DNA of 64,000 nucleotides from NCBI GenBank assembly GCA_945860205.1, contig CAMARK010000012.1:1-64000 (forward strand), written 5' to 3'. This document shows, in pieces, positions 6,564-25,978 of the stretch. Positions within the stretch are counted from its first letter, which is position 1, and each line of letters starts with the position of its first letter. Under the pieces are notes generated by a model, which ran no database searches, was not told the origin of the DNA, and saw only the letters and a program-made list of their open reading frames with translations. A program made the position numbers and the translations under genes. The stretch is from Reyranella massiliensis 521 (GTDB lineage Bacteria > Pseudomonadota > Alphaproteobacteria > Reyranellales > Reyranellaceae).

Positions 6564-6941
6564 ATGAAACTTCAATCACTTGTCCTCGTTAGCATGATGG
6601 GGATGGCGATCCCTGCTTTGGCTCACCCTGCTTTGGCTCACGAGGCCAAAGGCCCCAATGGCGGTCGGCTCACGGACGCTGGCCGTTACCACGTCGAAAT
6701 GGTCGCAAAGCCAAATGAAATCGAGGTCTTCGTATCCGATGCGAAGGAACAACCGGTTGCCGCCACCGGCTTCAGGGGCCTCGCCATTCTGGTCATTGAG
6801 GGCAAGCCACAGCGCATCACGCTTGAGCCAGCGGGCAACGACAGGCTCAAGGGGTCGTCAGCATTGCCGGTCCCCGGGAATCCAAAGGGCGTGATCCAGC
6901 TCACCGCGCCCGATGGCACTGTCAGCCAGGCCAAATTTTAA
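6564..6941 (+). CDS. Small periplasmic protein, CusB N-terminal-domain-like
   Basis: A 125-residue secreted protein 19 nt after cusA and preceded by AAAGAAAGGA. The signal peptide carries a perfect 15-bp tandem duplication (6611-6625 and 6626-6640) that makes PALAH twice. The mature part begins HEAKGPNGGRLTDAG and is beta-rich (YHVEMV, EIEVFVSD, ITLEP). GPNGGxL followed by a short beta domain is seen in accessory modules attached to metal-efflux adaptors, so it may be a free-standing metal-binding partner of the pump. No catalytic motif is visible. Function is inferred from context. Confidence 0.75.
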   Translation: MKLQSLVLVSMMGMAIPALAHPALAHEAKGPNGGRLTDAGRYHVEMVAKPNEIEVFVSDAKEQPVAATGFRGLAILVIEGKPQRITLEPAGNDRLKGSSALPVPGNPKGVIQLTAPDGTVSQAKF

Positions 6942-8054: not shown

Positions 8055-8183
8055 TCACTCGTCGCAGCAGGGACTCGCTTCTTCGCAACACGGGCTGCCT
8101 TCGTCACAGCAGGGCTGTGCCGCATGCGCCGCCGTTCCGAAGGCGAACAGCAGGACGAGAGTGGAGAGAATCGTACGTAACAT
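8055..8183 (-). CDS. 42-residue secreted peptide with three Cys-Cys pairs
   Basis: A tiny exported protein with a clear start: GGAG sits 8 nt upstream of ATG at 8183. Residues 1-22 are a signal peptide (TILSTLVLLFAFG, cut near AAHAAQ). The mature part is only about 20 residues and consists of the repeat PCC-D/E-E three times. No family is recognised. Three acidic-flanked dicysteines suggest a soft-metal ligand in the periplasm. It lies 40 nt downstream of another Cys-rich small gene on the same strand, so the two probably share a transcript. A metal role is inferred. Confidence 0.75.
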   Translation of the reverse strand: MLRTILSTLVLLFAFGTAAHAAQPCCDEGSPCCEEASPCCDE

Positions 8184-8223
8184 TTTTATCTCCGTTGATT
8201 GGAAAAGACACTCCGCAGCGGCG

Positions 8224-8529
8224 TCAACGGGGAGGTGGCTCGGCGGGAGTCGGCTCGATGCCAGTGCCGGTCGTGGACGGGCCAATGAGCCAGGCGGCAT
8301 TTGTGAACGTCTGCGGAGCCGCGAGCTCGCCTTCCGCTGCTATGCCGGCCTGGCAGCCAGGGCAGGCGAGAATAGCGCCGAGTGCGGCCTTGCCCTCACA
8401 GCATGGGCAAGCTTCCCCCTCGATCTCCGCTGGAGCAGCGGCGGCCACGACGACGGCCGGGAGGGCAACCCACAGCATCGCCGCAAGCAGGGCCAAGCAT
8501 GACAGGAAGCGGGTGGCGATCTTGATCAC
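8224..8529 (-). CDS. Small secreted or membrane Cys-rich protein
   Basis: A 101-residue protein starting at GTG (8529). An N-terminal hydrophobic segment (LALLAAMLWVALPAVVVAAAA) acts as signal or anchor. The mature part carries CPCCEGK near residue 41 and CPGCQAG near residue 56, then a Pro-rich end (PTPAEPPPR). It resembles the small Cys-motif proteins beside copper-resistance genes, though no exact family is claimed. No strong ribosome-binding site is seen before the GTG, so an internal start is possible. It is the upstream member of the pair with the 42-residue peptide. Confidence 0.65.
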   Translation of the reverse strand: MIKIATRFLSCLALLAAMLWVALPAVVVAAAAPAEIEGEACPCCEGKAALGAILACPGCQAGIAAEGELAAPQTFTNAAWLIGPSTTGTGIEPTPAEPPPR

Positions 8530-8641: not shown

Positions 8642-8846
8642 CCCCTTGCGTCGCTGGGGCGAAGTATTAAAAGGCCGCCGTTTTCGGGGATTAACCGTCC
8701 GCCCCTCTAGCGGAGTTGGCGTCAACAAACTTGGCTTCGGCCATGGCGCCCGCGACGGATCGCAAGGTCCGGACTGGCCAGACCGACGACATGGGAGTTC
8801 CGGCTCGCGTCGGGGGATTCTCGTGTCGTCGTGCAGCCGCGGCCCC
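8642..8846 (+). repeat. Copy 1 of the yybP-ykoY-like leader, altered in its core motif
   Basis: 205 bp aligned without gaps to 10131-10335 with 16 mismatches by my count (92% identity). Copy 2 precedes a TMEM165/GDT1 gene; this copy runs straight into a CusF-like reading frame. The conserved loop GGGGAGTA of copy 2 reads GGGGATTA here (8686-8693), so Mn(II) sensing may be lost. GGAGTTGGCGTCAACA and the GC-rich helices are kept. Confidence 0.85.
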
Positions 8847-9080
8847 GCCCTTGCCACCAGTCGCGATTCGAGCGCCGAGCTCATCAAGATCGACAAAGCG
8901 GCCGGCAAGATCACGCTGAAGCACGGGCCGATCAAGAACCTCGACATGGATTTCATGACGATGGTGTTCCGCGTTGCCGATCCGGCGCTGCTCGACAAGG
9001 CCAAGGCAGGCGACAAGGTCCGGTTCGAGGCCGATCGCATCAATTGCGCGATCACAATCACCGCGATGAAGGCGAAATGA
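8823..9080 (+). pseudogene. CusF-like copper-binding domain lacking its signal peptide
   Basis: The C-terminal 65 or so residues are a good CusF_Ec domain: ELIKIDKAAGKITLKHGPIK, then LDMDFMTMVF with the His and the Met-x-Met pair used for Cu(I)/Ag(I), Met replacing the usual Trp. CusF is a periplasmic metallochaperone handing metal to CusB. Here nothing resembling a signal peptide precedes the domain. The frame stays open upstream to a TTG at 8646 but through the duplicated leader RNA. GTG 8823 is the nearest in-frame start without that. The most likely reading is that the leader duplication replaced the 5' end, leaving a dead or cytoplasmic remnant. Confidence 0.65.
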
Positions 9081-9249
9081 GGGGTTACGAGGGCGCCGTG
9101 GCAAATCCGCCCCACAAACACCAAGACCCGGGTGCCTCAAAATTCGCCATGCTTGGCAACCTCGCGTCGCCTGTCGTGTTGCACCCACACGACAAGCCGC
9201 TCGTCCCCCCGGGCAAGCGGGCACTTTAACATTGCTGGAGATTTGAACC

Positions 9250-10068
9250 ATGTTGAAACATGTCGCTCTCTTGGGCGTGTTGGCCACCTTCGGCGCCGCC
9301 TCGGCCTATGGCCAGACGACCACGACACCCAACACGGCGCCGGCCAAGCCTGCTGCAAGCCCGCAAATAGCCACGGCCGTCGTCGATACCAAGAAGCTGA
9401 TCGGCCGCAATATCAGGAACTCCCAGAACGAGACGATCGGCGAGATCAAGTCGATCCAGCTCGGCAAGGACGGCAAGGTCGACACCGTGATGGTCGGCGT
9501 CGGCGGCTTTCTCGGCATGGGCGAACGCGAAGTGGCGCTGGCCTGGAAGGATCTCGTCATCGCCGACAACGGCGAGAAGGTCACGGTCAACATGACCAAG
9601 GACCAGCTCAAGGCCATGCCGGAGTACAAGTACACCGACCCGACCTACCGCGGCACGGTCTTCGGCGACAACACCACGCGCAGCACGACGACGGCGTCGG
9701 GCGACCGCATGGCCACCACGACGACAGCGACCACGGCCTCGACCGGTGACTTCAACGCCGCCGGCAACATCTCCGCCAACGCCCTGATCGGCGGCACGGT
9801 CAAGAACAGTGCCAATGAAACGGTCGGCACGGTGAGCGACGTCTACATCGACACCAACGGCGCCATCAAGCAGGTGGTCGTCTCGGTCGGTGGCTTCCTC
9901 GGTATGGGCGCGCGCTATGTCGCCGTGCCGTGGCAGGACATCAAGTCCTCGCGCGACGGCAACTCGCTTCTTCTGAAGACCAGCTGGACCAAGGACTCGC
10001 TGAAAGCGATGCCGGAATACAAGTACGAGCGTCGCGCCATGGCGACCCCGGCGGGCGAGAAGAAGTAG
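9250..10068 (+). CDS. Secreted protein with two PRC-barrel domains
   Basis: A 272-residue exported protein. The signal peptide ends near ASAYGQ. Two PRC-barrel repeats at about residues 45-130 and 180-262 share the segments IGRNIRNSQNETIGEI / IGGTVKNSANETVGTV, VGVGGFLGMG / VSVGGFLGMG, and LKAMPEYKY at each end. A Thr/Ser-rich linker joins them. PRC-barrels mediate protein or RNA contacts; secreted versions are common in Rhizobiales and Rhodospirillales and their function is not settled. It stands alone between the two leader copies, with a strong terminator after it. Start ATG follows CTGGAG. Confidence 0.88.
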   Translation: MLKHVALLGVLATFGAASAYGQTTTTPNTAPAKPAASPQIATAVVDTKKLIGRNIRNSQNETIGEIKSIQLGKDGKVDTVMVGVGGFLGMGEREVALAWKDLVIADNGEKVTVNMTKDQLKAMPEYKYTDPTYRGTVFGDNTTRSTTTASGDRMATTTTATTASTGDFNAAGNISANALIGGTVKNSANETVGTVSDVYIDTNGAIKQVVVSVGGFLGMGARYVAVPWQDIKSSRDGNSLLLKTSWTKDSLKAMPEYKYERRAMATPAGEKK

Positions 10069-10088
10069 TCGGTTCTGCGACAACGAAC

Positions 10089-10116
10089 GACGGCGCGGGC
10101 ATTGGCCCGCGCCGTC
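10089..10116 (+). terminator. Terminator hairpin after the PRC-barrel gene
   Basis: GACGGCGCGGGC (10089-10100) pairs perfectly with GCCCGCGCCGTC (10105-10116) around an ATTG loop. Only a short TTG follows, so termination strength is uncertain. Confidence 0.7.
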
Positions 10117-10130
10117 TTGCGTTGCGCCGG

Positions 10131-10335
10131 CCCCTTGCGTCGCTGGGACGAAGTGCTAAAAGACCGCCGTTTTCGGGGAGTAACCGTCCGCACCCTCAGC
10201 GGAGTTGGCGTCAACAAACTTGGCTTCGGCCATGGCGCCCACGACGGACCGCAAGGTCCGGACTGGCCAGACCGACGATATGGGAGTCCCGGCTCGGGTC
10301 GGGGGATTCTTGTGTCGTCGTGCAGCTGCGGCCCC
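10131..10335 (+). ncRNA. Probable yybP-ykoY manganese riboswitch (copy 2)
   Basis: The leader directly precedes a UPF0016/TMEM165 exporter, the classic partner of this riboswitch. It holds the diagnostic loop GGGGAGTA at 10175-10182, GC-rich helices, and the block GGAGTTGGCGTCAACA. Mn(II) binding would favour expression of the exporter. The assignment rests on the core loop, the structured GC-rich leader and the gene context; I could not run a covariance search. Confidence 0.7.
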
Positions 10336-10349
10336 CGGACGTTCATTTC

Positions 10350-10919
10350 ATGGAAATCATTCTCACGTCGATCGCCGTCGTTGCGATCGCCGAAATCGGC
10401 GACAAGACCCAGCTTCTGGCCATCGTGCTCGCGGCCCGGTTCCGCAAGCCGCTGCCGATCGTGCTCGGCATATTCGCAGCGACTCTGCTCAACCACGCCG
10501 TCGCCGCGACGTTCGGCTATCTGGTGGCGCAATGGCTGACGGGCGCCACCTTTCAGATCGTTCTGGGCGTCGCGTTCATTGGCATGGCGGTCTGGGCGCT
10601 CGTCCCCGACAAGCAGGACGAGAACGCGGCGAAGGTTTCGACGCGCGGCATCTTCCTCGCGACGCTCGTTGCCTTCTTCTTGGTGGAGATCGGCGACAAG
10701 ACACAGATCGCGACCTCGCTGCTGGCCGCGCAGTTCCACAACGTCGAGCTCGTCACCATCGGCACGACGATCGGCATGATGCTGGCGAATGTTCCGGCGG
10801 TTTATCTCGGCGAGGCGGCGACGAAGATCGTGCCCTTGAAACATGTGCGGATGGCCGCCGGCGCGATCTTTGCCGTCATCGGTGTCTGGGTCGTGCTCGC
10901 CGCTCTGAGTATTGCCTAG
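10350..10919 (+). CDS. TMEM165/GDT1 (UPF0016) family manganese/calcium exporter
   Basis: An inner-membrane cation transporter of 189 residues. Two inverted halves each carry the family signature E-x-G-D-K-T: AEIGDKTQLLA near residue 14 and VEIGDKTQIAT near residue 113. Six or seven hydrophobic helices surround them (VLGIFAATLLNHAVAATFGY, ILGVAF-like). Proteobacterial members such as MneA export Mn(II). A manganese riboswitch directly upstream supports manganese export here. ATG 10350 lies 14 nt after the end of the leader homology. The gene is monocistronic and converges on the desaturase pseudogene. Confidence 0.92.
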   Translation: MEIILTSIAVVAIAEIGDKTQLLAIVLAARFRKPLPIVLGIFAATLLNHAVAATFGYLVAQWLTGATFQIVLGVAFIGMAVWALVPDKQDENAAKVSTRGIFLATLVAFFLVEIGDKTQIATSLLAAQFHNVELVTIGTTIGMMLANVPAVYLGEAATKIVPLKHVRMAAGAIFAVIGVWVVLAALSIA

Positions 10920-12787: not shown

Positions 12788-13768
12788 TCACTGGGGCTCG
12801 ATCTTGGCGATCTTGACGTATTCCGCCCACTTGGCGCGTTCGTCGCGATCCTGCTGGGCGCACTGTTCCAGGGTGAGCGGCCGCGAGGTCAGCGCGAACT
12901 CGTTGGCGAGGCGATTCTTGATGTCGGGCGAGGAGAGCGCCTCGTTGATCAGCGCGTTCAGCCGCTCCTGCACCGGCCTGGGCGTCGCCTTCGGAACGGC
13001 GATGGCGAGGAAGCCCGTGGTGGTGAAGCCGGGGAAGCTCTCGGCCAGGGTCGGCAGGTCGGGATAGAGCGGGCTGCGCGCCGGCAGGGTCAGCGCCAGC
13101 GGCCGCGCCTTGTTGGCCACGACCTGGCCGCGGCCTGCCGTGAGGTCGACGAACATGAACTGGATGGCGCCGGCGTAGAGGTCGTTCCAGGCGTTGCCGA
13201 TCGCCTTGTAGGCCACGCCCTGCCATTCGACGCCGGCGCGCGCCGCCAGCACCTCGGCCGGGACCTGCGAGCTTGCGTTGAAATAGCCGAAGTTCAATTT
13301 GCCCGGGTTGGCTTTGGCATAGGTCAGCAGGTCGGTCAGCGTCTTGTGCGGGCTGTTCTCCGGCACCACGAGGAAGGCGCCGGACGAGCCGATGATGCCG
13401 ACGACGGTAAAGTCCTTCTCCGGGTCGTAGCCCGGGTTCTTGTACATGTGGACGTTGGCGGCGTTGGTCGAGGTCGTGGCCAGCATCAGCGTGTAGCCGT
13501 CGGGCGGCGCGGTCTTGACGGCGAGCGCGCCGACGATGCCGTTGGCCCCAGGCTTGTTCTCGACCACGAAGGGCTGGCCGGTCTTGTCCTCGATGTACTT
13601 GCCGACCAGGCGTGCGGTGATGTCACCCGACCCGCCCGGTGCGAAGGGCACGATGATGCGGATCGCCTTGGTCGGGAAGGTTTCGGTCTGCGCTGCCGCC
13701 GGAAGCGCCGCGAGGAGCGGCAGGGTGAAAACCGCGCGGCGAGAAAGCGATGTGCGAAATGAGGTCAT
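12788..13768 (-). CDS. Bug/TctC family solute-binding protein
   Basis: Periplasmic substrate-binding protein of the tripartite tricarboxylate transporter type, 326 residues, usual length. The signal peptide (residues 1-26, RRAVFTLPLLAALPAAAQ) precedes the Bug hallmark IIVPFAPGGSGDITARLVG and VENKPGANG, with APPDGYTL in the next conserved block. These proteins bind small carboxylates; the ligand cannot be read from sequence. No TctA or TctB membrane genes are near, the usual situation for the expanded Bug family. It is divergent from the CoA-transferase gene, which may act in the same catabolism. Confidence 0.93.
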   Translation of the reverse strand: MTSFRTSLSRRAVFTLPLLAALPAAAQTETFPTKAIRIIVPFAPGGSGDITARLVGKYIEDKTGQPFVVENKPGANGIVGALAVKTAPPDGYTLMLATTSTNAANVHMYKNPGYDPEKDFTVVGIIGSSGAFLVVPENSPHKTLTDLLTYAKANPGKLNFGYFNASSQVPAEVLAARAGVEWQGVAYKAIGNAWNDLYAGAIQFMFVDLTAGRGQVVANKARPLALTLPARSPLYPDLPTLAESFPGFTTTGFLAIAVPKATPRPVQERLNALINEALSSPDIKNRLANEFALTSRPLTLEQCAQQDRDERAKWAEYVKIAKIEPQ

Positions 13769-25863: not shown

Positions 25864-25934
25864 TATATAGAGGCGGTCCGTGGAGATTTGAGCCGACCGG
25901 CTTGCGACCACGTTAAACATCGCTAAAAGGTCGG
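25864..25934 (+). promoter_or_regulatory. SAM-II riboswitch (metA-type aptamer) before metZ
   Basis: P1 is CGTGG (25879-25883) with CCACG (25908-25912). The pseudoknot is CCGACC (25893-25898) with GGTCGG (25929-25934), both perfect. The conserved strings GATTTG, CTTGC, GTTAAA and GCTAAAA lie in the expected places. A TATATA box (25864-25869) sits just upstream. SAM binding should reduce metZ expression. This class is largely alphaproteobacterial. Confidence 0.93.
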
Positions 25935-25944
25935 AGGTGCTCGC

Positions 25945-25978
25945 AAAAGCCCCCGTCCTTCCAGGTCGGGGGCTTTTT
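25945..25978 (+). terminator. Intrinsic terminator, expression platform of the SAM-II leader
   Basis: AAAAGCCCCCG (25945-25955) pairs with CGGGGGCTTTTT (25967-25978), a strong GC stem with T5, placed 10 nt after the pseudoknot and 48 nt before the metZ start. It may be the regulated terminator. Confidence 0.85.

Follow-up and report, generated by a model that had tools for sequence, protein, structure and literature searches.

The manganese riboswitch class (yybP-ykoY, RF00080) is known for ON switching, and an adenosine of loop L3 confers its specificity for Mn2+. The family is marked by the cores GGGGAGUA in L1 and GUCAACA..ACUUGG in L3. In the window (the whole stretch of 64,000 nucleotides analysed here), one of two related leaders, copy 2, resembles the family in these cores, in its RF00080 score and in its GDT1 partner gene, whereas copy 1 departs from it in having GGGGAUUA in L1, a score of 32.9 bits and no intact gene start after it. 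The gene fragment joined to copy 1 resembles the periplasmic copper/silver-binding protein CusF (PF11604) in its mature domain, including a DMDxMTMVF motif, but differs from it in lacking the signal peptide core, the ATG and the ribosome-binding site and in having private substitutions. In the published structure of the manganese riboswitch (PMC6754395), L1 adopts a sarcin-ricin-like fold that directs an adenosine towards the metal site of L3. Tandem riboswitches (reviewed in PMC9481103) likewise have two aptamers close together; unlike these, the two leaders described here are separated by 1.5 kb and an entire gene, have their own promoter regions and do not form one regulatory unit.

Two leaders of the manganese riboswitch family

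Realignment of the two leaders gave a gapless match over 205 bp each with 16 differences, exactly as a sequence-only reading of this DNA had counted. That reading had also assigned both to the yybP-ykoY/manganese type, and a search with the RF00080 model agreed: copy 2 passed the curated gathering score of 45 bits with 48.3 bits (10163-10344), while copy 1 was recognisable below it at 32.9 bits (8686-8848; 31.3 bits in another run). The L1 difference reported between the copies, GGGGAGTA in copy 2 and GGGGATTA in copy 1, was recovered as well. The source genome, a 4.98-Mb draft in 210 contigs that is placed in the Reyranella group by the organisms carrying the closest CusF loci, yielded copies 1 and 2 and no third RF00080 leader. 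The coordinates of all features are collected in Table 1.

Weak gapped similarity extends upstream of copy 1 to ~8632. A longer duplicated segment was considered and rejected, since local alignment of the upstream flanks gave a short TTGCGTTGC-like match that 3% of shuffles equalled in score and the downstream flanks shared nothing beyond a 10-base, chance-like match. Two small cysteine-rich ORFs lie on the minus strand at 8055-8300 and 8224-8529 (CCDEGSPCCEEASPCCDE; CPCCEGK...CPGCQ); Pfam and NCBIfam searches of both returned no match, and the DNA of this region recurs in many genomes of the genus. Elsewhere in the window, a SAM-alpha riboswitch (RF00521, 59.2 bits) was found at 25870-25946 (+).

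Table 1. Features of the two leaders and the genes around them
Feature	Position	Strand	Basis
Copy 1, stranded sub-threshold riboswitch leader	8642..8846	+	RF00080 score, leader alignments
L1 core of copy 1, GGGGATTA, private G-to-T at 8691	8686..8693	+	Comparison with other aptamers
Rearrangement junction: leader homology to GGCCCC (8841-8846), then GCCCTTGCC = Ala-Leu-Ala (8847-8855)	8841..8855	+	Leader and cusF alignments
5'-truncated cusF, mature copper-binding domain	8847..9080	+	PF11604; 17 intact relatives; candidate starts
PRC-barrel protein gene, between truncated cusF and copy 2	9250..10068	+	PF05239
G+C-rich inverted repeat, possible terminator of PRC-barrel gene	10090..10115	+	Sequence
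Copy 2, promoter region and manganese riboswitch leader of GDT1 gene	10131..10335	+	RF00080, orthologous single leaders before GDT1 in relatives
L1 core GGGGAGTA, intact in copy 2	10175..10182	+	Same in other aptamers read, copy 1 excepted
CCCCC-GGA-N10-ATG, putative Shine-Dalgarno and GDT1 start	10332..10352	+	MFE, pairing probabilities
GDT1/TMEM165-type cation/proton antiporter	10350..10919	+	PF01169

Copy 2 as the leader of the GDT1 gene

The gene 3' of copy 2 matched GDT1 (PF01169, E 3.4e-40), which confirms the TMEM165/GDT1 exporter named in the sequence-only reading. Copy 2 holds both conserved cores (L1 GGGGAGTA, L3 GTCAACA) and, judged by its sequence, is an ordinary RF00080 manganese riboswitch. 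In the predicted ligand-free minimum-free-energy fold, CGGACG (10336-10341), which probably contains the GDT1 Shine-Dalgarno sequence, pairs with the aptamer strand CGUCCG (10185-10190); folding of the aptamer would thus probably free the Shine-Dalgarno sequence and turn on the gene for the GDT1 manganese exporter, a predicted mechanism that fits the ON switching of the class. A general switch in which L1 pairs with the CCCC before the start was suggested by the consensus fold, but the pairing was weak in most single sequences and is not claimed here.

The junction between copy 1 and cusF

The copy 1 leader runs to GCGGCCCC (8839-8846), and homology to CusF resumes directly at GCC CTT GCC (8847-8855) with the final signal-peptide residues (GPALA in the window, GPVLA and GTALA in relatives), followed by the mature domain. 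This domain matched CusF_Ec (PF11604) with an E value of 4.4e-24 and 84.6 bits against a cut-off of 27 bits; the reading frame remains open, with the copper-site His and Met residues retained. All 17 of the aligned Reyranella-group relatives have an ATG and a hydrophobic Sec-type signal peptide before CusF, most with AGGAG-like purines ahead of the ATG; compared with these, the window cusF has no ATG, no recognised ribosome-binding site and no signal-peptide core. The native end of the leader (CCCCCGGA...ATG; CGGA-ATG), present in copy 2 and in relatives, is missing from copy 1. Since the leader end and the cusF start are both absent at the join, both partners have lost their start signals. 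Thus, the earlier statement that copy 1 precedes a CusF-like domain holds for the identity of the domain, but its wording, "in front of", is misleading because the leader stands in place of the ribosome-binding site, the start codon and the greater part of the cusF signal peptide, and because copy 1 has also lost the start signals of its own native gene.

When in-frame upstream ATG, GTG, TTG and CTG codons were scanned as candidate cusF starts, only GTG 8823 and TTG 8646 were found, and neither would provide an export signal (best hydrophobic 12-mer 0.98 vs 2.6-2.9). No second, intact cusF was found in the genome. The window CusF carries 3 private changes at 35 otherwise invariant positions (0-2 in relatives), and its pairwise dN/dS values with relatives span 0.10-0.38, whereas the relatives among themselves have a median of 0.10 and a maximum of 0.23; these values hint faintly at recent relaxation.

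State of the copy 1 aptamer

The L1 G that copy 1 has lost is kept in 44 of 45 matches from the genus (one locus, G029, being counted twice) and in 28 of 28 other Pseudomonadota aptamers, copy 1 being the sole exception. By our own mapping onto the published structure (PMC6754395), in which the exact residue number is inferred, the changed base is the one right after the metal-site adenosine, and the change is expected to impair manganese sensing. The L3 core of copy 1, which includes the Mn-contacting adenosine, is GTCAACAAACTTGG, identical to that of copy 2. Of the 85 leader columns at which the remaining twelve leaders are all identical, copy 1 departs at 4; corresponding counts of private changes are 0-1 in copy 2 and nine nearer relatives, and 9 and 11 in the two most diverged relatives (G029 and G003). 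Two of the changes in copy 1 fall within the putative -10 region, and the platform hairpin is still predicted to fold despite the private changes there.

As a test of decay, the RF00080 cut-off was discarded: scores of 37.8-44.8 bits (G013 37.8, G054 44.5) are seen in relatives whose cores are intact, so a sub-threshold score is no proof of decay. Pairwise leader differences are alike (copy 1 to copy 2, 16; copy 1 to G013, 19; copy 2 to G013, 20), which, together with the predicted persistence of the hairpin, speaks against long free drift of copy 1, so that any inactivation must be recent or partial. The sequence-only reading had offered either a decaying copy or a changed ligand; the L1 change, the private changes and the lost start signals favour decay, and no evidence in support of a changed ligand was found.

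Arrangement in related genomes

RF00080 matches occurred in 47 of the 75 family genomes, almost all as single copies. In the loci examined around matches in the genus, the leader was followed by GDT1. When related genomes were searched for the double arrangement, it appeared in this genome alone, and of 80 CusF loci taken from other genomes not one had an RF00080 match within ~3 kb. The G013 genome has cusA, a homologue of the gene at 6564, a single leader, GDT1, the nitroreductase gene and the gene at 12788-13768, without copy 1, CusF or the PRC-barrel gene, while in G054 a copper gene group with an intact CusF is followed by a single leader and GDT1. In the latter genome (locus L152, 504-2985) the manganese riboswitch-GDT1 unit closes the copper gene group, whose members, named from their sequences, are multicopper oxidase-like, cupredoxin-like, CusF and cytochrome-like. 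The genus has two leader types: one genome (G016; loci L014 and L148/L153) carries two manganese leaders of different sequence types, each before its own GDT1.

The distance between copies 1 and 2 is about that of the species split (GDT1 dS ~0.2), which means that the duplication may have happened apart from the fusion. As it is also near the distance of each copy from G013, the leaders either separated long ago or one of them was imported, and the copy 1-CusF fusion looks younger than the separation of the leaders.

Interpretation of the locus

The reading that we regard as most likely is that copy 1 is a stranded leader which is joined to a cusF lacking its beginning and has recently started to decay, and that copy 2 is the ordinary manganese riboswitch of GDT1. 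Illegitimate recombination (a deletion or tandem-duplication join) would have linked the 3' end of copy 1 into the signal-peptide sequence of cusF, probably at GGCCCC, a plausible microhomology at the join; deletion, tandem duplication or integration of a circle may each have been the route, and they look alike here. The join would have cost copy 1 the ribosome-binding site and start of its gene, and cusF likewise, after which copy 1 would have begun to decay, and we infer that it no longer functions. Besides the limited drift of copy 1, the open frame and retained copper-site residues of the truncated cusF and the many private changes in the leaders of G029 and G003 weigh against this reading.

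Copy 1 might instead keep a promoter/5'UTR role only, as the source of transcripts that cross the truncated cusF and enter the PRC-barrel gene, with or without a response to manganese, but we consider this unlikely. The promoter region does sit inside the repeat, the PRC gene lies downstream in the same direction with a possible terminator before copy 2 (the G+C-rich repeat has an opposite-strand self-match at 10081-10124), and the overall divergence of copy 1 is no greater than that of copy 2. However, PRC homologues are widespread in the genus, yet the leader there is found before GDT1 alone, and both the L1 change, with its expected effect on manganese sensing, and the two changes in the putative -10 region count against such a role. 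Within this genome the PRC gene has merely a distant second match.

That the join is an assembly error is improbable: the draft state of the genome and the uniqueness of the arrangement would allow it, but with 8% of positions different between the copies the repeat ought not to mislead an assembler, and both flanks (cusA and the gene at 6564 on one side; GDT1, nitroreductase and the gene at 12788-13768 on the other) match one contiguous locus in G013.

We give still less credence to copy 1 as a functional metal riboswitch that has been retuned and governs a new, leaderless cytosolic CusF started at GTG 8823, for although this GTG is in frame behind a GGGGGA, the copper-site His and Met persist and the L1 change adjoins the metal-site adenosine in our mapping onto PMC6754395, a predicted hairpin holds the GTG and much of that possible Shine-Dalgarno sequence, CusF has no signal peptide, the L1 G is invariant elsewhere, the Mn2+-specificity loop L3 is unchanged and the arrangement occurs in one genome only. 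Just as doubtful is a natural manganese-aptamer variant with changed L1, recruited through the fusion so that another metal would control a cytosolic, copper-binding CusF or the PRC-barrel gene.

On the favoured reading of a stranded, decaying copy 1, a riboswitch before an unexpected gene can be the scar of a rearrangement, and inspecting the downstream gene for its own start and export signal guards against false assignment of a ligand. Furthermore, copy 1 provides a naturally occurring single-base change in a loop that hardly varies, and with it a way to examine what keeps this base conserved.
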